IMG/VR virus record: IMGVR_UViG_3300028840_002349
Span: 1 to 22,509 of that record
Source: a virus
Reading direction: 5' to 3' (one strand)
DNA: 22,509 bases
Shown here piece by piece: positions 4,557 through 16,306 of this stretch. Numbering within the stretch: the stretch's first letter is position 1; each line of letters starts with the position of its first letter. A program made the position numbers and the translations under genes. Under the pieces are notes generated by a model. It was not told the DNA's origin, made no database searches, and saw nothing but the letters and a program-made list of their open reading frames with translations.

Positions 4557-4724
4557 ATGAAGTTGACTGCAATTTTAGCAAGAACTACAACTGACAAAGT
4601 TAAATCAAAATTATTATCTCCTGGGCTGGCAGAGATAACATTCGAGTGCTATATTGAACCAGAAGAATTTGCAAAACTAATCAACGAATATTTTGACAAG
4701 GAGTTAAATGTCGAAATCACTTGA
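4557..4724 (+). CDS. Small hypothetical protein before terminase (55 aa)
   Basis: ATG 4557-4559 to TGA 4722-4724. The peptide begins MKLTAILARTTTDKVKSKLL and ends EFAKLINEYFDKELNVEIT; it looks like an alpha/beta soluble protein. No family is recognised. It is the first gene after the extended -10 promoter, with only 8 nt between the two. Its 3' end overlaps the terminase small subunit gene by 17 nt and contains that gene's AAGGAG ribosome site, so the two are translationally linked. It may be a regulator or packaging accessory; that is a guess from position. Confidence 0.6.
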   Translation: MKLTAILARTTTDKVKSKLLSPGLAEITFECYIEPEEFAKLINEYFDKELNVEIT

Positions 4725-5112
4725 GAAAAAAGAGGTAGGTAGACCTGCCGCAGATATTGAGGGCTATTTTACGAAAATGGTTCCGTATCTAAATTTGGGA
4801 TTAAGTGTGTACAGAGCATGCAATCAAGCCGACGTTCCTTACACAACCGTTCGTGATTACTACAATCAGGACGAGGATTTTCGTAGGCGCGTGGACTTAG
4901 CAAGAGACGACATTGTTGTTACAAGCAGAGCTAAGTTAGCTGAAGAAGTAAAAAAGAAGAGTTGGAGTAGAACCGACGCACATAAATACGTCCTAGATAA
5001 TCTGGACGAAGATTTCTCAAAACAAAAAAACCAAGGAAACATAAACATAGCAGGAAACGAAATGAGTATCGAGTTTGTCTTGGACGACTATGCCACAGAT
5101 AAAACTACATGA
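4708..5112 (+). CDS. terS: Terminase small subunit (134 aa)
   Basis: It binds the packaging start site on phage DNA and recruits the large terminase. The N-terminal half looks like a helix-turn-helix (ACNQADVPYTTVRDYYNQDE, about 38-57), followed by helices with SRAKLAEEVKKKSWSRTDAHK, a layout usual for small terminases; KSWSRTDAHKYVLDNLDEDF resembles the oligomerisation region of that family. A strong AAGGAG lies 7 nt upstream. It directly precedes and overlaps the large subunit gene, the standard order. Identification rests on fold pattern and context, since small subunits diverge widely. Confidence 0.75.
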   Translation: MSKSLEKKEVGRPAADIEGYFTKMVPYLNLGLSVYRACNQADVPYTTVRDYYNQDEDFRRRVDLARDDIVVTSRAKLAEEVKKKSWSRTDAHKYVLDNLDEDFSKQKNQGNINIAGNEMSIEFVLDDYATDKTT

Positions 5113-6394
5113 GAGTCAGTATGAGATTGCACAAGACAGTCACAGATACCGAATAGTTTGTGCGGGAAGAAGATGGGGTAAATCAGTACTTAGCAGGATG
5201 ATTGTACTGCAGTGGGCATTAAGAGAACAGGGAATTTATTGGATTGTTAGCCCAACATACAAACAATCAAAAATGATTCATTGGCGGGATTACCTAAAAG
5301 AAATTCCGAGCCAATGGGTACAAAAGAAAAATGAAGTTGAACTATCAATTATACTCAAAAATGGATCAATTATCGAGCTTAAAGGCGCTGAAAATCCGGA
5401 TGCTCTTAGAGGAGTTAAACTTAGAGGACTCGTTATTGATGAGATTGCTTCAATTAGAAACTGGGACTGGCTCTGGGCTGAAGTCCTTAGACCAACACTT
5501 ACTGACTATAGCGCTCCAGCCATATTTATTTCCACACCAAAAGGGTTTAACCATTTCCATGATCTATACCAGCTCGGACAACAGCCCGAGGGTGACTATC
5601 GATCTTGGAGATACACAAGCTACGACAACCCCTATATCCGAAACGAAGAGATAGACGCGGCCAAAAAAGAACTGACAGAGGATACATTTGCCCAGGAATA
5701 CATGGCTGATTTCAGAAAGTACACAGGGCTTGTATACAAGAACTTTGAAAGAATACTGCACGTCATCGAGCCTTTTGACATACCCTACGATTGGCGGGGA
5801 ATCAGAGGAGTGGATTTTGGTTCGACGAACCCAACGGCTTGTATTTGGGTGTTATTTGATAAAGACGATAACTGGTACATAGCAGACGAACATTACGAAA
5901 CAGGCAAAACAATTGATTACCACGCAGGAATTATGAATGCACATGCTCTGACACCAAAGATAATTTCAACATTTGGAGATCCTAGCGGCGCACAGTGGAT
6001 GAGAGAGTTTGCTGAACGTGGCGTTTATATAACTCCGGCTAACAAAGACACAGGAACAAGCAACAAAAACTGGGTAAACTTTGGAATTGAGAAAGTAGCA
6101 GAAAAACTCAAACCTATTCCTGGACACTTTGTCGATAAGGTAGGTAAAGACAATCAACCTAAGCTATTCGTGTTTAACAACTGCGAAAACACAATCCGAG
6201 AATTTGAGACATACAGATGGCGGGAGAAATCACCAACAGCAGCGCAGGATTTAAATGAACCTGAAGAACCGGAAAAGGCGAACGATCACATTATGGACGC
6301 ATTAAGATATTGCGTAGTTAGTTATCAAAAACCTGAGTCTGTATATGTTGAACCTCAATGGAAAGAGGAACAATGGAAAATAGGCAAACATTAA
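5090..6394 (+). CDS. terL: Terminase large subunit, ATPase-nuclease (434 aa)
   Basis: This is the motor that pumps DNA into the prohead and cuts it. N-terminal ATPase: Walker A AGRRWGKS (25-32), Walker B RGLVIDE with catalytic Glu (112-118), coupling motif ISTPKG (147-152). C-terminal RNase-H-like nuclease: GVDFGSTNPTA with D242, GDPSG in the middle, and NDHIMDALRY (398-407) supplying the last acidic residues. Length is normal for the family. I chose ATG 5090, with GGA 5 nt upstream; a TTG at 5075 would add five residues. It overlaps the small subunit gene by 23 nt. Confidence 0.95.
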   Translation: MPQIKLHESQYEIAQDSHRYRIVCAGRRWGKSVLSRMIVLQWALREQGIYWIVSPTYKQSKMIHWRDYLKEIPSQWVQKKNEVELSIILKNGSIIELKGAENPDALRGVKLRGLVIDEIASIRNWDWLWAEVLRPTLTDYSAPAIFISTPKGFNHFHDLYQLGQQPEGDYRSWRYTSYDNPYIRNEEIDAAKKELTEDTFAQEYMADFRKYTGLVYKNFERILHVIEPFDIPYDWRGIRGVDFGSTNPTACIWVLFDKDDNWYIADEHYETGKTIDYHAGIMNAHALTPKIISTFGDPSGAQWMREFAERGVYITPANKDTGTSNKNWVNFGIEKVAEKLKPIPGHFVDKVGKDNQPKLFVFNNCENTIREFETYRWREKSPTAAQDLNEPEEPEKANDHIMDALRYCVVSYQKPESVYVEPQWKEEQWKIGKH

Positions 6395-7053
6395 TCTACG
6401 GCACACTTATTTGCCAAAACGCGATAAGTGAAATAAGGCGTTGCATAGAGTCTGTTAGGCCTGTAGTTGATGAGTATTATGTTATGGACGGTGGGTCAAC
6501 AGATGGTACATGGGAAATGCTGAATGATTACAAGGATGTTTATGGCCTTACGCTTTTTCAGAGTAAATACGAAGATCAAGGAGCGCAGAGGAATAAGCTA
6601 AGATCAAAACTTCCTAAGAACATTTGGGTTGTTAATTTAGATCAAGACGAGGAGTTAAACATGGCCGCAAGAAAAGAACTTAGGCAGTTTCTTAATCGAG
6701 TTCAAGTAACGCAGCACGATTTGCCTCTGACTCTTGCAATCAAGAATATTAACTTGGTAAAGGACATGTTTCATTACGATGCTAGTTTAGTGAGCTACTT
6801 TGCCACGAAGATCTTTTATTATGACAAAAACTTACATTTTACACCTGGATATCATATGTCAATTCATTACTTTGACAACGAACAAAATATTAATTCTATT
6901 CCGTGCCCTGAGGATTTTGTTATTAAACATTACGCATGGTTGGATAAAAAGCGTAGAGAAACTGCGGGCAAGGATAATAAACGAGCATATGGAGGAGAAG
7001 AGGGGTTGGAAAGTTCGTGGGATATTAGAGAATTACCAGAGGAGTGGTACTAG
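6373..7053 (+). CDS. GT2-type glycosyltransferase (226 aa)
   Basis: It has the GT-A pattern: an N-terminal strand (LIYGTLICQNAISEIRRCIE), DGGSTDGTWE, the usual nucleotide-sugar loop, and WVVNLDQDEELN with a D-x-D-like metal site. Later His and Trp residues (FVIKHYAWLDKKRRE) fit an acceptor domain. It would transfer a sugar from a nucleotide donor; donor and acceptor are unknown. A GAGGAAC ribosome site decides for ATG 6373 over ATG 6358. It overlaps the end of the terminase gene by 22 nt, so it is made with the packaging proteins, an unusual place for a glycosyltransferase. Confidence 0.8.
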   Translation: MENRQTLIYGTLICQNAISEIRRCIESVRPVVDEYYVMDGGSTDGTWEMLNDYKDVYGLTLFQSKYEDQGAQRNKLRSKLPKNIWVVNLDQDEELNMAARKELRQFLNRVQVTQHDLPLTLAIKNINLVKDMFHYDASLVSYFATKIFYYDKNLHFTPGYHMSIHYFDNEQNINSIPCPEDFVIKHYAWLDKKRRETAGKDNKRAYGGEEGLESSWDIRELPEEWY

Positions 7054-7474: not shown

Positions 7475-8086
7475 ATGTCTAAAAAGACAATAGAAATAGA
7501 AGAACCTAGTGTAGCTAGGTTAGTAGTAAGTGTAATAGGAACAGCTCCGTTCCTTAGCGATAGAATTGATCCTAGATTTTTAGAATCAGAGCACGCTAAA
7601 AGAGAATTATCCCCAGAAGAATTAGATGCTTTGTACGAGAGTAAAAAGTATTATGATGAAAAAATGCGTGCAGGAATTCCCGCCGCCGCCTTCAAGAAGG
7701 CCTTCGAGGAGGCAGCCAAGGGACAGGGTTGGTGGGTGGGGGGTAAGATTAATGGTAAAAGGCTCAAAGGCGCAGTTTCATTGACAGGAGTGGTAATCCC
7801 GCTTGAATCTATTTCCGACGAAAGGAAACTAGAAGAAGTGCGAAGGGAAGATATAGTTAATCAGGGCGGCAGGAAAAGTTCTAAGGTGCTCAGAAGGCGA
7901 GTAGCTTTTTATAACTGGCGTTGTAAGTTACCTTTGGACATCAACGTTAATCTAATGTCCGTTGACGATGTTGTGAAAGTTATTAATATGGCGGGAGTTG
8001 CTGTTGGTGTTGGGAACTGGAGACCGCAGTGTAGTGGTACTTTTGGAACTTTTAGAGTCGAGGAGGTTAAAGATGCAAAAGATTAA
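7475..8086 (+). CDS. Hypothetical phage protein (203 aa)
   Basis: I cannot name a function. The N-terminus is acidic, then SVARLVVSVIGTAPFLSDRI. The middle has PAAAFKKAFEEAAK and a Gly/Trp loop. The C-terminal third ends GVAVGVGNWRPQCSGTFGTF, a Gly-rich pattern I associate, from memory and loosely, with uncharacterised proteins in other tailed phages. A clear AGAAAGG ribosome site lies upstream. Codons 69-90 (7679-7743) are far more GC-rich than the rest. The structured leader suggests controlled expression. It overlaps the next gene by 14 nt. Confidence 0.65.
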   Translation: MSKKTIEIEEPSVARLVVSVIGTAPFLSDRIDPRFLESEHAKRELSPEELDALYESKKYYDEKMRAGIPAAAFKKAFEEAAKGQGWWVGGKINGKRLKGAVSLTGVVIPLESISDERKLEEVRREDIVNQGGRKSSKVLRRRVAFYNWRCKLPLDINVNLMSVDDVVKVINMAGVAVGVGNWRPQCSGTFGTFRVEEVKDAKD

Positions 8087-8555
8087 AGAAATAATATACA
8101 AAGCTAGAGAAGGTGCCCCGTTTGGGGACGAAAAGGCGAAAGAGCTTGCACTTTACATGGAGGAAAACGAACTTGAAAGTCCTGATGAGGTTTTAGACGA
8201 CGCGTTAAAGAATGAGAAATCCCCTTTTAGAGAGTTTATAGAGTGGGATAAGGAAAAGGCGTTTATAAAATACGCGAAGGAAAGTGTTAAACATGTGGTG
8301 GCAAGTATATCCGTCGAGATAAAGTTTGTTGGGGGTGAAACCGTGCGCTTTAAACGTGCCTATAACATTGTTCGTATTGGAGGTGCAAATTTTTATGCCC
8401 CTACTGAGGATGCGCTGACCAGCGAAGAATCCCGTAAGCAGATTTTAAATCGCGCGTATGGTAATTTAAAGGGTTGGCAGGAAACATACGGTAACTATTT
8501 GGAGTTTGCTAAAATAGTATCAGCTATAGACGAGGTCGATCCGTCTGAGTTTTAA
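8073..8555 (+). CDS. Hypothetical protein (160 aa)
   Basis: The start at ATG 8073 is set by a strong GAGGAGG 6 nt upstream; the frame also stays open upstream but without a ribosome site. The protein has helices at the N-terminus (IKEIIYKAREG, KAKELALYMEENELES), then a beta-rich part (VVASISVEIKFVGGETVRFK, IVRIGGANFYAPTED), then helices with WQETYGNYLEFAKIV. No catalytic motif is evident and I do not recognise a family. It is translated with the gene at 7475 (14-nt overlap). The CGC array begins 9 nt after its stop codon. Confidence 0.6.
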   Translation: MQKIKEIIYKAREGAPFGDEKAKELALYMEENELESPDEVLDDALKNEKSPFREFIEWDKEKAFIKYAKESVKHVVASISVEIKFVGGETVRFKRAYNIVRIGGANFYAPTEDALTSEESRKQILNRAYGNLKGWQETYGNYLEFAKIVSAIDEVDPSEF

Positions 8556-8563
8556 ATCTACGA

Positions 8564-8636
8564 CGCAACGCACCGCGCCGCTGCGCAACGCTACGCGCCG
8601 CAGCGCTACGCCTCGCAACGCAACGCCACGCACCGA
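8564..8636 (+). repeat. CGC trinucleotide array phased at exactly 5 bp
   Basis: CGC occurs at 8564 and then every 5 bases through 8629, 14 times without a miss, with two variable bases between (AA, AC, GC, TG, AA, TA, GC, AG, TA, CT, AA, AA, CA); a decayed CGA follows at 8634. The stretch is strongly GC-rich next to AT-rich flanks. All three frames are open but there is no start codon with a ribosome site. The constant core with free dinucleotides differs from a simple slippage repeat. A 5-bp period is half a helical turn. Confidence 0.85.
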
Positions 8637-8647
8637 TAAACTTAAAG

Positions 8648-8762
8648 TTGACGAATAGGCATATATTGTGTTAAAAATGGGGCAACAAAGTTCGTTACCG
8701 GTAGAACTGGGGCGGACATCATAGATTACAAGATTTGTAGTTTGTGGTGTCCGCCTTCTTGT
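8648..8762 (+). promoter_or_regulatory. Portal gene leader: possible promoter and hairpins
   Basis: TTGACG (8648-8653) with a poor -10 (TTAAAA 8671-8676) may be a promoter. Then AGTTC/GAACT (8689-8708) encloses a palindrome TACCGGTA. Next GGCGGACATCA (8711-8721) pairs with TGGTGTCCGCC (8745-8755) over 11 bp with one G-U. Loop bases ACAAGA (8728-8733) match TCTTGT (8757-8762) just beyond the stem, again interleaved. The ribosome site AAAGGAAA follows before the ATG at 8780. Confidence 0.5.
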
Positions 8763-8779: not shown

Positions 8780-10762
8780 ATGCCAGAAGCTATAGAAGCC
8801 AAAGGTACAAAAAAAGAAAGAGAACAATTCTATATTCTGAACCAACACTTTAAAATGGCACTAGAAGACTTAGAGAATAGATATTCAGGTTGGGATACAA
8901 AACTAGAATTGTTTTATTCGTACATAGATGAATCTGGTTGGCCGTATTCAGCGGAGATATTCGTGCCACAGACATTCACCGCTTTATTTGAGAAAATGGC
9001 ACGCCTTAATGGAGGCAAGCCAAGAGGAAGGCTTATACCAAGAGAGGGAGGAGATATTATTAGAGCCAAGATTAACAACGAATTGCTAAACTACCAATGG
9101 GATGACGCGGCAAGAGTTGATAAAGAGCCAATGGTTGCCAAATGGGCAAGAATGGATCTTAACGCGAGAATATATGGTGCGGCTTTTGGGCTTGTTAAGT
9201 GGAGGTATGAAGTGGATTCAGACGGGGAGGTAGTGTTTGACGGGCCTGTATTAAAAGTACTCAACAACAAGGACTGTCTGCCTAATCCAGCATATTCAAC
9301 AGTAAAAAACTGGTTTCAATATAGGGATTATATAACACTGTATGAGCTTGATAATGTAAACGATACCTGTGGAGAAAAGCCCCGTTACAAGAATTTAAAG
9401 ATACTAAGAGAGTCAATTATTAACAAGTCTACAAAGGGCGGGGATACTAGGCAGCTAAATTATACGCCTAAAGGAAGGGAGTTGTTGGGACTGTCAGATT
9501 ACTTGGGTATGGACGAGGACCCAGACTTTAGAATCGTTGAAATCGTCACCGAATATAGGGACGATAGAATAATTTCCTTTGCACCTAAGCACGGAGTAAT
9601 TATTCGAGACGAGCCAAATCCTTATGCACACAAGCAAATTCCAATTGTCTGTCTAAAGTACATTCCTGTTGACGACGACATTTACGGTCTTTCAGAGATC
9701 GAACCGATTGAGAAAGTACAAAAGGCAATGAACGCACTAACCAGCCAGTTTATTGACGCAATCAACATGGATTTATACAGGATTATGCAAGTTAATCCTT
9801 CGGCAGTTCAGATGCACACACTCGAGTGGGGACCAGGCAAAAAGTGGCTTATGAATGAGCCGGGCAAGTCGGTTGTTCCTCTTGAACACTCAATGACGGC
9901 AACAAATCAATTTGTTAATGTATACTCGGTATTAACACAAATGTTTAAAGAGGCAATGGGGGAGCTGTCAGCAGCCATGTCAACACTTAAACCATTTGGT
10001 AAAGAAAAGACTGCAACAGAAGTAGAGGCTTTAACAACCACAAGGTCTGTGAGAGATAACTTTAATCAGATATTCTTGGCAGAGACAATCAAGGAACAAA
10101 TGCTTTATTGGTTGCAAATGAACCAGCAGTTTATATTCTCCGATCCAGAGAAGCAGTATTTAGCACTTAGGGTAGTTGGCAGAGAGGCTATGAAGGATTT
10201 TGAGAGGCTGGGGCTTGACGGAATGACTCCCGATACAAGTGATTTTGAAATGTACAGCGCAGAGCAGGCAATATTGCAAGGAGGGGAAGGAGAGCTTCCA
10301 ATGGTTCCTCAATATCCTGTTACGGTAGAGGGAGAAACAATTCCAAAGTTTAAGTTGGAGGAAACAGGGGAAATGGGCACGCTGTACGTTGTAGCAGACG
10401 ATTTGTCAGGAAGCTATGATTACATTGCAGACGTAGAGCCTATGCAAGCGGATTCAACAGAAAAGGAGATTCAGGCAGCAAGGGACGCTATAGGAATGTT
10501 AGCTAATCCTACCATTCTACAGCTATTGCAAATGGAAGGGAGAAGACCTAAGGTATCTGAGATGATTATAGATTTATTTGAGAAGACAGGCATTAAAGGT
10601 GCGGAGAAATACTTTGATGTTATGGAATCTCAGGAGGTAATGTATGGCCAACAAGGGCAGGCAGGAACTAACCAAGGAGGAGCAGGACTTGGTGCACAAG
10701 GGGGAGGAGTTGTACCTCCTCAAGCAGCACCCGGGATGGAAGGTTTTGGAGGAATGGCTTAA
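8780..10762 (+). CDS. Portal protein (660 aa)
   Basis: The portal forms the dodecameric ring at the capsid vertex through which DNA enters and leaves. Length and layout fit large portals of the P22/SU10 kind: helical N-terminus (FKMALEDLENRYSGWDTKLE), a wing region with GAAFGLVKWRYE and VLNNKDCLPNPAYSTVKNWF, IVCLKYIPVDDDIYGLSEIE before long stem helices (KAMNALTSQFIDAINMDLYR), and FGKEKTATEVEALTTTRSVR. Position between terminase and scaffold/capsid genes agrees. The last 40 residues are a Gln/Gly tail encoded in the stretch that also encodes the next gene. GAAAGGAAA is the ribosome site. Confidence 0.85.
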   Translation: MPEAIEAKGTKKEREQFYILNQHFKMALEDLENRYSGWDTKLELFYSYIDESGWPYSAEIFVPQTFTALFEKMARLNGGKPRGRLIPREGGDIIRAKINNELLNYQWDDAARVDKEPMVAKWARMDLNARIYGAAFGLVKWRYEVDSDGEVVFDGPVLKVLNNKDCLPNPAYSTVKNWFQYRDYITLYELDNVNDTCGEKPRYKNLKILRESIINKSTKGGDTRQLNYTPKGRELLGLSDYLGMDEDPDFRIVEIVTEYRDDRIISFAPKHGVIIRDEPNPYAHKQIPIVCLKYIPVDDDIYGLSEIEPIEKVQKAMNALTSQFIDAINMDLYRIMQVNPSAVQMHTLEWGPGKKWLMNEPGKSVVPLEHSMTATNQFVNVYSVLTQMFKEAMGELSAAMSTLKPFGKEKTATEVEALTTTRSVRDNFNQIFLAETIKEQMLYWLQMNQQFIFSDPEKQYLALRVVGREAMKDFERLGLDGMTPDTSDFEMYSAEQAILQGGEGELPMVPQYPVTVEGETIPKFKLEETGEMGTLYVVADDLSGSYDYIADVEPMQADSTEKEIQAARDAIGMLANPTILQLLQMEGRRPKVSEMIIDLFEKTGIKGAEKYFDVMESQEVMYGQQGQAGTNQGGAGLGAQGGGVVPPQAAPGMEGFGGMA

Positions 10763-12429: not shown

Positions 12430-13350
12430 ATGGCAGAATTTGGATTGATTACATATGACGATGCAGTAAGACGTGAGGATTTATTGGATATCATTAGCGA
12501 TGTTTCGCCCGATGATAATCCTTTGTCCACTATGCTTGCAACTACAACTGCAAAAGGAACCTACCACGAGTGGGCAGAAGACTACATTGATCGTCCTTCT
12601 AGCGTTGCTTCTTCTTATGAAGGTCAAGCAACTTCCTACTCAGATCTGACACAACCTAGTAGGAGAGGTAACTTTACACATATTATCTCTCAGAGCTACA
12701 GAGTATCAGGAACTGAAAGAGCAGTCTCTGTTGCAGGAATGTCCGATCCTTTTGCATATCAAAAAGCAAAAGCACTTAGACAATGGAAGAACAATCTTGA
12801 ATACGCACTCTTAAGAAGTACAGCCGCTTCTGGCTCCTCTGGTGTTGCTAGAACTATGATTGGTATCTCCGCTGTGGTTACGAGCCACTATACCAACAGA
12901 AACTCTGGTACATCATTAACAGAAGACATGCTTCTTGACGGTATCCAGGATGTTTGGACAGATGTTGGTGGCGATTCAGTCTGTGACTTAATATTAACAA
13001 CAATGCCTTTGAAGAGAAGAATTTCTTCATTCACTGCAGGTTCAACCAAATACATTGACGCATCTGACAAGAGACTTGTTAGACCAGTCGAGGTATACGA
13101 ATCTGATGCAGGTCTTGTTAGGATTATGGCTCACAAAGACGCTAGAAACGCTGCAGCAACTCCAGGACCTGAGCTTTTGGGTCTTAGAGAAGATAAGTGG
13201 AGAGTCGCTTACTTGCGAAGACCGACTTCCGAAGATCGACCTAAAGACGGTGACTACACCGCTGGGGAGATAATCGGAGAAATGACGCTTGAATATTTAG
13301 CACAGAGAGCGAACTTCAGGCAGACCGGATTTGTCTTAACAGGTATATAA
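12430..13350 (+). CDS. Major capsid protein, SU10 / DUF5309 type (306 aa)
   Basis: The shell-forming HK97-fold protein. The N-terminus (REDLLDIISDVSPDDNPLST, then TTTAKGTYHEWAEDYI) and the later RVSGTERAVSVAG followed by DPFAYQKAKALRQWKNNLEY match the pattern of SU10-type capsid proteins (Pfam SU10_MCP, formerly DUF5309), as does the C-terminal LEYLAQRANFRQTGF. Length is usual. No propeptide or decoration domain is evident. AGGAGGTGA lies 11 nt upstream, a long spacing. The -35 of the next promoter lies in its last codons. The assignment comes from recalled family motifs plus the preceding scaffold gene. Confidence 0.88.
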   Translation: MAEFGLITYDDAVRREDLLDIISDVSPDDNPLSTMLATTTAKGTYHEWAEDYIDRPSSVASSYEGQATSYSDLTQPSRRGNFTHIISQSYRVSGTERAVSVAGMSDPFAYQKAKALRQWKNNLEYALLRSTAASGSSGVARTMIGISAVVTSHYTNRNSGTSLTEDMLLDGIQDVWTDVGGDSVCDLILTTMPLKRRISSFTAGSTKYIDASDKRLVRPVEVYESDAGLVRIMAHKDARNAAATPGPELLGLREDKWRVAYLRRPTSEDRPKDGDYTAGEIIGEMTLEYLAQRANFRQTGFVLTGI

Positions 13351-13424: not shown

Positions 13425-13796
13425 ATGTTAGTTGAAGATAAGCTGACAGGCAGATTAATAAGAGATAAACACCAAGCATTTATAGATAAGGTTATAAAGT
13501 TGAAGAATACAAAAGGTGTTTGGGCGGCCATAGATTTAATGATTAAGGAATGGGAAGAATCTAATCCGCAAGAGTTTAGGTCTTACGTAGTGTCGGTTGA
13601 GGATAAAAAGGAAACTAGAGAAACCAGGTATGGTTCCAATAAGCAAAAAACTATTAGACAGACAGTTGATTTTCCCCAGGAGATTCAAAATAGAATAAGA
13701 GCAATTTACAAAGCAGACGAACTTCCTTTTGATAAGAAGTTTTTTAAAATGTTTTGGGAAAGGTATCCGCAGTATAGGGTTGCGGAAAAATATTAA
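13425..13796 (+). CDS. Hypothetical protein after capsid gene (123 aa)
   Basis: A charged, helical protein (DKHQAFIDKVIKLKNTKGVW, AAIDLMIKEWEESNPQEF) with aromatic-rich C-terminus (KKFFKMFWERYPQYRVAEKY). No known motif. Its place directly after the capsid gene would fit a head-completion protein, but it shares a promoter with the sugar cassette and ends TAATG into the first glycosyltransferase. Therefore a role in either module is possible. The ribosome site GAAAGG is 5 nt before the ATG. Confidence 0.6.
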   Translation: MLVEDKLTGRLIRDKHQAFIDKVIKLKNTKGVWAAIDLMIKEWEESNPQEFRSYVVSVEDKKETRETRYGSNKQKTIRQTVDFPQEIQNRIRAIYKADELPFDKKFFKMFWERYPQYRVAEKY

Positions 13797-16306
13797 TGGC
13801 AAAAATAGCACTAGCAATGATATTAAAAGATAGCGAACCTACAGATATGATAATGAGGTGTTTGTATTCTGTGGCTCCGCATGTGGATGGAATATTTTTA
13901 ACAATCAACGGTAGAACTAAGAAAGAGACTAAAAAGGCAATTCAACTGAAAAAAGAATTAGACATACTTTGTATTTCAAGAAGTTATCCAGAAGTCCAGT
14001 TTTCTTATACTAAGTGGGAGAAAGACTTTGCCAAGGTACGTAATTTTAACTTTGGACAAGTCCCGAGCGAATACGATTTTATTATTTGGCTAGATGCAGA
14101 CGATATTCTTCGAGGTGGAGAGAATCTGCATGATTTAGCAGACGAGTGCTTGCAAAAGGGATTTAGTGCGGTGTTTTTTAATTATCTTTACCGTGTAGAT
14201 CTCGATGAGAACATGAAAATACGCCAAGTACTGATAGAACACCTCAGAGAACGCCTTATTAGAAACGATAATAGCTATATGTGGATATCTCCGATACACG
14301 AGACTTTGATAGAACAAAGAGAGACAGTTAAGACTGATTCTGGGCTTTGCGATGTTGTGCATTTGTCTAGCGATAAAAGAGCGGACGCAGCTATTCACCG
14401 AAACATTGAAATACTTGAGAAACAACTAGAGGACCAGGGAGACAGAAAAGATCCTCGAACGCTCTATTATTTGGCCAAAGCCTACTTTGATTTAAGGGAA
14501 GACGAGTATTGGTTGAAGGCGGAAGATTATATTAAGAAATACTTACACGGGTCTGAGGAAAACACACCTTCGGGTTGGGCAGAGGAAAGGGCGCAGGCTT
14601 GGGAGTATTTAGCTGAGATTTATAGAGACTGGGGGCTTTACAATAAGGCCATAAAAGCTGTTTCAAATGCGCTTATAGAAGATCCTAAGTTCCCTAACTT
14701 TTACATAGATATGGCAATGATCTATATGTATATGCACGATTGGAGAAAAGCAAAACATTGGGCGCTTTTGGCACAACAGGTTCCCTATCCAAAGACCACT
14801 CTTGTTACCAATCCAAGGGATATGCAGGTAAGAACGATTGAAGTTTTATTAAACGTTGCCATTAACACAAACGATATTGATGGGGCATGGGCAATGGCCT
14901 CTAAGTCGGCGGAGATCTTTCCTAACGACGATGTGATATTGGACAGGTTTAAACATCTTACTGAGATAAAACGCCAAAACGAGGTAGCTCATGAGATTAT
15001 AGATTTGGCAAGGTACTTGGACGAAAGAGGACAAACCGATAAGCTAGTCTCACTCGTTGGCTCAATTCCCAGAGAGATCGAAGAAGAACCTGTAATGATT
15101 AGCTTGAGGCGGGATTTTACCCCAGCGAGAACTTGGGAAGAAGATGAAGTGGCTATAATGTGTGGCAGAGGTTTTGAAAAATGGAGTCCTAAGAATCTTG
15201 GTACGGGAATAGGCGGTAGCGAAGAGGCGGTTATTTATATGGCTAAAGAACTTAGCAGTCTTGGGTGGAGAGTGACAGTTTTTGGCGATCCGCAAGAGGA
15301 TGCTGGAATGCACGAGGGTGTAAGATACGTTCCTCATTATAAGTTAAACCCTAAAGACGAGTTTAATATTTTGATAGGTTGGAGAAGTGTTTCTTTCTTT
15401 GATCACGACTGGCACGCTAAGAAAACGTATTTGTGGCTGCATGATATACAAAACCCTAATGAATATACTCCAGAGAGACTTGACAGCATCACAAGAATAT
15501 TTGCTCTCTCCGAGTGGCAAAGGAACAACATGCCTAATGTCCCGGACGACAAGTTTCTTGTTACGGGAAACGGCATTGATCTTGATAGCTTCAGACAGCT
15601 TGATAAAAGCCCTATTAAGAGAAATACAAAGAGGTGTATTTATACCTCAAGCTATGATAGAGGGCTTGAGCATTTGTTGAAACTATGGCCTGAGGTTAAA
15701 AAAGAAGTTCCGGAGGCAGAGTTACATGTGTTTTATGGTTGGAAACTATTTGAGTCTTTCTATGCAAACAACCCCGAGAGGATGGCGTGGAAAGAAAGGA
15801 TAGACGAACTAATGAAGCAGGACGGTGTTTACCATCACGGGAGAGTAGGGCAGCTTGAGGTATTGGAAGAAACATATAAATCAGGTATATGGGCATATCC
15901 TACTCATTTTGGTGAAATATCCTGTATAACAGCTATGAAGTGTCAAGCAGCGGGAGCGATACCGGTTGTTTGTGATTATGCGGCTCTCAAGGAAACTGTG
16001 CAGTTTGGAAAGAAGGTAAATGTTGATGAGGAGGACATTTACGTTAAAGATACCCAAGATAAGTACACCAAAGAGCTAGTTGCAGCTCTCAAAGACACAG
16101 AATGGCAAAATTCCATACGTAAGGAAATGATGGCATGGGCTAGGGCTAGGTTTTCTTGGGGTTCGGTAGCGGAGCAATGGGATAAGGAGTTTAGAACAGA
16201 TGAGCTAAAGGATGCTGCCAAGGTTTTAACAGACCACGACGAAAGTTTAAAAAAATATTTACCTGTACAGTTACAAGAAAGGCTTGGATATGAGCAAACT
16301 TATTGA
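13796..16306 (+). CDS. Tri-modular glycosyltransferase: GT2 - TPR - GT4 (836 aa)
   Basis: Residues 1-200 are a GT-A (GT2) domain: KIALAMILKDSEP, then YDFIIWLDADD with the D100-x-D102 metal site. About 205-330 has TPR-like helix pairs (RTLYYLAKAYFDLREDEYWL, AWEYLAEIYRDWGLYNKAIK, FYIDMAMIYMYMHDWRKAKH), probably for protein contact. About 450-830 is a GT-B (GT4-like) domain: GIGGSEEAVIYMAKELSSLG, GNGIDLDSF, RGLEHLLKLWPEVKKEVPEA, and a donor-site GEISCITAMKCQAAGAIPVV. It could add two successive sugars to one acceptor. It starts within TAATG at the end of the upstream gene. Donors and target unknown. Confidence 0.85.
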   Translation: MAKIALAMILKDSEPTDMIMRCLYSVAPHVDGIFLTINGRTKKETKKAIQLKKELDILCISRSYPEVQFSYTKWEKDFAKVRNFNFGQVPSEYDFIIWLDADDILRGGENLHDLADECLQKGFSAVFFNYLYRVDLDENMKIRQVLIEHLRERLIRNDNSYMWISPIHETLIEQRETVKTDSGLCDVVHLSSDKRADAAIHRNIEILEKQLEDQGDRKDPRTLYYLAKAYFDLREDEYWLKAEDYIKKYLHGSEENTPSGWAEERAQAWEYLAEIYRDWGLYNKAIKAVSNALIEDPKFPNFYIDMAMIYMYMHDWRKAKHWALLAQQVPYPKTTLVTNPRDMQVRTIEVLLNVAINTNDIDGAWAMASKSAEIFPNDDVILDRFKHLTEIKRQNEVAHEIIDLARYLDERGQTDKLVSLVGSIPREIEEEPVMISLRRDFTPARTWEEDEVAIMCGRGFEKWSPKNLGTGIGGSEEAVIYMAKELSSLGWRVTVFGDPQEDAGMHEGVRYVPHYKLNPKDEFNILIGWRSVSFFDHDWHAKKTYLWLHDIQNPNEYTPERLDSITRIFALSEWQRNNMPNVPDDKFLVTGNGIDLDSFRQLDKSPIKRNTKRCIYTSSYDRGLEHLLKLWPEVKKEVPEAELHVFYGWKLFESFYANNPERMAWKERIDELMKQDGVYHHGRVGQLEVLEETYKSGIWAYPTHFGEISCITAMKCQAAGAIPVVCDYAALKETVQFGKKVNVDEEDIYVKDTQDKYTKELVAALKDTEWQNSIRKEMMAWARARFSWGSVAEQWDKEFRTDELKDAAKVLTDHDESLKKYLPVQLQERLGYEQTY

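Follow-up and report, generated by a model that had tools for sequence, protein, structure and literature searches.

The locus

The window analysed here, 22,509 nucleotides of IMG/VR virus record IMGVR_UViG_3300028840_002349, carries phage packaging and head genes: terminase small subunit at 4708, large subunit at 5075, portal at 8780 and major head protein at 12430. Between the terminase and portal genes lie the following features.

7475 to 8086, plus strand: vipr, encoding a 203-residue protein of predicted RAMP fold, phrog_4652 (PHROG E 3.8e-20; homology)
8006 to 8017, plus strand: codons of the Vipr glycine-rich loop GVGN, residues 178 to 181 (translation; alignment of 57 Vipr rows)
8073 to 8555, plus strand: putative accessory gene, vap-like, phrog_15946 (PHROG E 7.5e-11; blastp)
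8564 to 8633, plus strand: in all likelihood the vrRNA repeat tract, 14 CGCNN units, a design that recurs in many viral loci
8634 to 8680, plus strand: possible vrRNA 3' tail, beginning CGATAAACTT, placed by its position after the array, limits approximate

The PHROG database assigns no function to phrog_4652. Against the PDB, phmmer matched the 203-residue protein to 36pp_D, 'SUSP1 Vipr protein' (E 2.9e-7), its four other matches being weak (E 0.048 and above) and to unrelated proteins; a profile of the 57-member Vipr family matched a single PDB sequence, again the SUSP1 Vipr protein of 36pp (E 1.6e-10), an entry that contains six chains of it. When an AF2 model of the window Vipr (pLDDT 77, pTM 0.75) was submitted to Foldseek, the best 50 rows were all CRISPR RAMP subunits or effector complexes (best E 3.2e-6, TM about 0.5). 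The same open reading frame was recovered by tblastn with the conserved gene of the array loci described below (25% identity, E 2e-7). The residue that follows GxG in its G-loop is N181. For the accessory gene we prefer the ATG at 8073, which is preceded by GGAGG, to the TTG at 7998 with which the list of open reading frames begins it. Its product matched proteins of Mycobacterium phage Brocalys (blastp E 4e-10) and of the Gordonia phages Ecliptus (5e-9) and Pipp (4e-8), all three encoded near Vipr and themselves phrog_15946.

The earlier note had described 14 error-free CGC triplets at 5-bp intervals, with variable dinucleotides between them, lying between the stop of one gene and the portal, and this description was borne out. 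Triplets start at 8564, 8569 and so on to 8629 without departure from the 5-nt step, the last ends at 8631, and the final free pair occupies 8632 to 8633. The array begins 8 bp past the stop of the gene that ends at 8555, with the portal gene downstream at 8780, in surroundings of GC content about 0.4. The 28 free bases read AA AC GC TG AA TA GC AG TA CT AA AA CA AC. At the base composition of the window, 14 in-phase CGC triplets have a probability of about 1.4e-30 per start; five in-phase CGCNN units gave 10 overlapping matches in the window, every one within the array, and none across 100 dinucleotide-preserving shuffles of it. No second array was found in a longer, 44,469-base record of the same phage (G017), and megablast of the window against 50,697 phage records gave no match.

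Two other functions for this interval were considered and set aside. A structured RNA or terminator at 8556 to 8680 was rejected since the segment folds no better than shuffled sequence (z +0.87) and no Rfam family reached threshold in the 12 sources searched. A coding function was rejected since the gene caller placed no gene there; the repeat (CGCNN)n is free of stop codons in any forward frame, so that long open reading frames through such arrays, as at L016, can be meaningless.

Elsewhere in the window, a strong inverted repeat with a T-rich tail lies at 8711 to 8755, directly ahead of the portal gene. By eye, hairpin-like repeats occupy this position in the portal relatives L135 and L136 too, with other sequences, and these elements look as if they were terminators or attenuators ahead of the portal. 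Glycosyltransferase-like proteins (phrog_13126 and phrog_2170; 6358 to 7053 and 13796 to 16306) are encoded amid the head and packaging genes.

Distribution of CGC arrays and their linkage to Vipr

When IMG/VR was scanned for runs of eight CGCNN units in phase, at least 120 stretches were returned. The matches listed contain 210 arrays that have at least eight units and five or more kinds of NN; of these arrays, 38, spread over 25 loci, had the exact ending CGCAACGCAACG. True slippage arrays, in which one NN is repeated, also occur among the scan matches (for example, L021 and L050). A stricter CGCNN pattern found five stretches in 84,980 bacterial and archaeal genomes, a figure that is not like-for-like with the IMG/VR scan; Vipr is present in four of the five (L130-L133).

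Linkage was assessed over 121 loci, the 120 IMG/VR matches listed and the window, L065 and the window being one phage. In 96 of these loci there are five or more kinds of NN, and Vipr was found within the stretch read in 73 of the 96, leaving 23 without it, and in 7 of the 25 loci of low NN diversity. With wider profiles Vipr was detected in 84 of the 120 IMG/VR matches listed; seven of these 84 loci (L020, L025, L055, L066, L090, L099 and L112) have GGC/GGY arrays near Vipr. None of 27 control loci, made up of six portal relatives and 21 loci recovered by patterns from the window guide, contained Vipr or a six-unit CGC array. The earlier note would have weighed relatives without the array against a selected function, and the six portal relatives (L135-L140, 49-68% identical) do literally lack it; Vipr is missing from them as well, so that array and protein are absent together.

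Gene context was examined in 17 records, 10 whole and 7 in part, with a simple purpose-made gene caller. Sixteen of the records contain a total of 130 arrays of five or more units, of which 128 lie outside called genes and 128 are on the same strand as the upstream gene. Arrays often occupy stretches of non-coding DNA several hundred bases long that flank one conserved gene, on one side or on both. This gene is vipr; tblastn with it gave matches in most array loci as well as in the window. Vipr is present in 15 of the 17 records, the exceptions being G018, a record read in part with no array in the first 20 kb of its 43 kb, and G006. The latter (43,338 bases; loci L027, L039 and L164-L166) has five CGC arrays, and Vipr was not detected anywhere in the whole record; its arrays may be served by a Vipr supplied in trans, or its Vipr may be too divergent to detect.

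Conservation of the triplet and of the free pair

The earlier note had called for a comparison of CGC with NN conservation. Over seven pairs of related phages, CGC differed at 113 of 907 aligned sites (12%) and NN at 302 of 542 (56%), gaps excluded; an eighth pair, L017/L126, is identical and was omitted from the sum. The exact figures are soft, because the aligner is drawn to CGC matches, L016/L056 aligned poorly and some phages stand in two pairs. Between L018 and L042, differences occur at 38 of 1273 flanking sites, at 19 of 26 NN bases and at 0 of 45 CGC bases.

The earlier note had suggested selection for a protein-contact or DNA-shape pattern. Selection for protein contact fits the evidence, in that the triplet is kept, the pair is hypervariable and a gene for a RAMP-fold protein lies nearby. 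Because the arrays follow the coding strand, sit in non-coding gaps and travel with Vipr, the protein contacts are most likely made on the transcript, with the free bases carrying target information.

Probable assignment to VIPR

VIPR is described in one 2026 bioRxiv preprint (PMC13142463), the only paper describing the system that a full-text literature search on Vipr and vrRNA found. Its vrRNA consists of 9-16 units of 'GGY/NN motifs, or a related consensus', and targets are read with a 1-nt skip (PMC13142463). CGC as a triplet has no occurrence in the main text of the preprint, and a literature search for pentanucleotide CGC or CGCNN arrays in phages found, in the portion of the literature that it covered, no paper on such arrays.

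The window has a Vipr RAMP homologue at the locus and, beside vipr, a vap-like accessory gene at 8073 to 8555. Its fixed triplet with hypervariable NN agrees with the published description only by way of the 'related consensus', as 14 of 14 units carry CGC and none the literal GGY. The array is not a CRISPR array, having 5-nt units, 2-nt variable parts and no repeat/spacer layout. We consider it highly likely that the array forms the repeat tract of a VIPR guide RNA (vrRNA), encoded on the same strand as vipr and an accessory gene. The system is very probably a CGC-scaffold form, which differs in its triplet from the published GGY.

By analogy with the published relatives, and with the Paracoccus guides decoded below, the array would be expressed as RNA, bound by Vipr and used for repression. 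In such a system the vrRNA transcript would be bound by several Vipr subunits, perhaps one for each 5-nt unit, and each subunit would grip the fixed triplet, here CGC, and expose the two free bases. The target DNA would be matched by the NN pairs together in the pattern NNxNNxNN..., one target base being passed over for each unit; once bound, the complex would block transcription of a rival phage or mobile element.

The VIPR systems of the SUSP1 and P. fulva clades (type II; PMC13142463) likewise combine a RAMP-fold Vipr with a small accessory gene and an intergenic, sense-strand array whose 5-nt units each consist of a fixed triplet and a hypervariable pair; the window has 14 such units. Their vrRNAs have a GGY triplet and a conserved structured 3' tail, whereas the window has CGC and no evident structured tail. 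GGY arrays also lie near Vipr in eight named phages: SUSP2, Silverhawkium, Gordonia phages Pipp and Ecliptus, Mycobacterium phage Brocalys, Pseudomonas phages LESphi2 and Medea1, in the last of which the array is weak, and DSL-LC04. The accessory gene of SUSP2, LESphi2 and Medea1 is phrog_5926, unlike the phrog_15946 of the window. In contrast, phrog_15946 is common to the window and the systems of Pipp, Ecliptus and Brocalys, but these have GGC/GGY arrays in place of CGC, and their Viprs are at most about 34% identical to that of the window over the tree columns. The window system is therefore closest in its parts to the actinophage form, with another triplet. The main CGC group of uncultivated phages (L079, L016, L133 and others) has CGC/NN arrays near Vipr as the window does, but represents another Vipr lineage, often with several arrays per phage and with R after GxG where the window has N. 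Finally, the class 1 CRISPR-Cas RAMPs (Csm3/Cas7) share the RAMP fold with the window Vipr, whereas the window has one small protein, a non-contiguous 5-nt code and no CRISPR repeats or spacers.

Reading the guides

The code could be tried on L133, a Paracoccus litorisediminis contig (625 to 1290) with Vipr and three CGC guides, of which two, g1 and g3, formed the test and the third, of low complexity, was left out. Guide g1 (11 units, two of them imperfect, closing AA units excluded) gives a 22-base gapped pattern at a 1-nt skip. With up to two mismatches this pattern has sites in 52 of 101 Paracoccus genomes, many with no mismatch, while the reversed control has none in 101; skips of 0 and 2 likewise gave 0 of 101 and a skip of 3 gave one, namely the array itself. 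All eight sites that were fetched encode, on the opposite strand, (V/I)(D/E)VVVVYKIDR, a motif of resolvases (serine recombinases), and the skipped bases at these sites fall on wobble positions. Pfam identified the proteins as resolvases in all four cases scanned.

Guide g3 (10 units, one imperfect, closing AA units excluded) has sites at a 1-nt skip in 5 of the 101 genomes, two of them with no mismatch in 20, against 1 of 101 for its reversed control and 0 of 101 at a skip of either 0 or 2. Four of the five sites lie within GpA-type phage terminase genes; the fifth, in an unrelated hydrolase gene, we take as chance. Since both guides match at a 1-nt skip and neither at 0 or 2, the published skip holds, on the evidence of sequence, for both of these CGC guides. 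The Paracoccus sites suggest that guides target conserved motifs in the integrases and terminases of rivals. Against the skip rule, a test of 184 guides from perfect arrays, imperfect units excluded, over a small database of 1.9 Mb of phage loci showed no difference between skips 0 to 3.

For the window guide, one 10-unit and four 8-unit exact patterns found no target in IMG/VR. Extended matches reached 16-23 of 28, which is about chance, the best (23 of 28) being in L368, one of the 25 loci of its scan. In the gathered phage sequence the best match was 19 of 28 at skips of 0, 1 and 2 alike; at a skip of 3 the guide found itself (28), the next best match being 20.

Alternative explanations

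The plain alternative offered by the earlier note was a repeat eroded unevenly, considered here as a functionless pentanucleotide slippage repeat such as (CGCAA)n. Genuine one-NN arrays do occur among the scan matches, as at L021 and L050, and AA is among the commonest NN, but measured from a (CGCAA)n ancestor the window array departs at 0 of 42 triplet bases and at 14 of 28 free bases (Fisher p 2e-7), and related phages repeat the contrast at 12% against 56%. Slippage also leaves the linkage to Vipr unexplained. In the main, the CGC/NN contrast refutes this reading, which we now find scarcely credible. A DNA site for packaging or cleavage, a replication iteron or a nucleoid-type site, its half-turn spacing recognised by a phage protein, would suit both the 5-bp phase, close to half a helical turn, and the position between the terminase and portal genes. 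It does not account for portal relatives that have no array, nor for the arrays of other phages, which keep to the strand that is transcribed, are frequently numerous in neighbouring gaps around Vipr and diverge widely in NN, nor for two decoded guides that match mobile-element genes. We regard such a site as very improbable; these roles, and the recombination hot spot proposed alongside them, found no support in arrays that follow the coding strand and Vipr.

In TRAP-like attenuation a ring protein binds triplets set apart by two spacer bases; we dropped this candidate since the neighbouring protein is Vipr and the decoded guides match mobile-element genes. The array might instead be a vrRNA by descent, now disused or served only by a Vipr in trans. 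The window has a single array, for whose guide no target was found, and one whole record (G006) has arrays and no detectable Vipr, which would fit; in the window, however, neither vipr nor the accessory gene nor any of the 14 triplets is damaged, and we think disuse or service in trans very unlikely here. The reading that we favour remains a vrRNA encoded together with its own Vipr.

Change of the scaffold triplet and the G-loop

The main Vipr tree has 57 rows, 47 with CGC and 10 with GGY arrays. It was derived from a first tree of 78 rows, prepared after removal of nine duplicate or cut loci and of proteins shorter than 140 residues, by manual removal of 21 more, namely L066 and members of the main CGC group, which was thinned. 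The arrays of L020, L066 and L099 are GGC, and L020 and L099 were counted as non-CGC in the 57-row tree. CGC Viprs do not form one clade in this tree: at least four changes are forced on starred branches, and the AU test, chosen after the trees were seen, rejects a single CGC clade (p 0.0006). The window Vipr clusters with L127 and L120 (CGC) and with L020, L099, Gordonia and Mycobacterium (GGY), with support of 99/95. A second IMG/VR scan, for GGY arrays, returned at least 120 stretches, and Vipr was found in 91 of the 120 matches listed. In a quick tree of 141 rows, from which near duplicates, rows with an unreadable G-loop and loci with an unclear triplet were left out, at least five triplet changes fall on starred branches, with eight on the best tree; the window lies outside every starred set that comprises half the rows or fewer. 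Long branches in these trees make single placements unsure, that of the window included.

The residue after GxG, read by text pattern with near copies counted, was obtained for 161 readable Viprs, 16 GGY and 5 CGC rows being excluded as unreadable and 6 for want of a clear triplet. It is D or E in 74 of 87 GGY Viprs (the others being 8 T, 4 R and 1 L); in the 74 CGC Viprs it is R in 67, T in 4, N in 2 and E in 1, so that 1 of 74 is acidic. Nearly all of the R residues come from one Vipr group, and starred branches provide five independent pairs only, mostly with two the same way, none opposite and three tied (median p 0.5). The G-loop residue thus tracks the triplet in raw counts, an association that is not significant once descent is allowed for and that we treat as a lead only. 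Exceptions to the proposed rule are L228, L237, L282 and L342: GGY arrays lie near their Viprs, although these carry R after GxG and are placed inside the main CGC group.

A wider reading, which we put forward as possible rather than probable, is that the triplet is a switchable code. At least four or five times, Vipr lineages would have exchanged one triplet, GGY or CGC, for the other; the residue after GxG would set the triplet, an acidic one going with GGY and R, N or T with CGC; the guide languages of rivals in the same cell would not cross-react; and guides would be aimed at conserved protein motifs. A single guide of this kind, passing over the wobble bases, could then disarm an entire class of mobile elements.

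VIPR is a class of RNA-guided DNA recognition that is months old and has a gapped code. The occurrence of a CGC-scaffold form in many uncultivated phages provides independent sequence support for its 1-nt skip rule, and indicates both that the scaffold triplet can change and that one loop position may set it. If the loop rule is true, a CGC system and a GGY system could be run in parallel, free of crosstalk, and single-residue swaps would offer a test of how RAMPs acquired their hold on guide RNAs.

Several smaller observations concern other loci. In L060/L155 (L155, 5831 to 6736) an in-frame stop codon interrupts the Vipr gene. Inverted repeats were seen by eye between successive CGC arrays at L079 (8965 to 9030) and L131 (5755 to 5830); here too no match to an Rfam family reached threshold. 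In part of the main CGC group a gene beside Vipr (L081, 6461 to 6904, and homologues) has no match in Pfam, NCBIfam or PHROG, and is a candidate for a new accessory protein. At L127, on the minus strand, a repeated hairpin-like element with a TCTTTCG core follows several arrays, again by eye, and is possibly a structured vrRNA tail or processing site in that CGC lineage.
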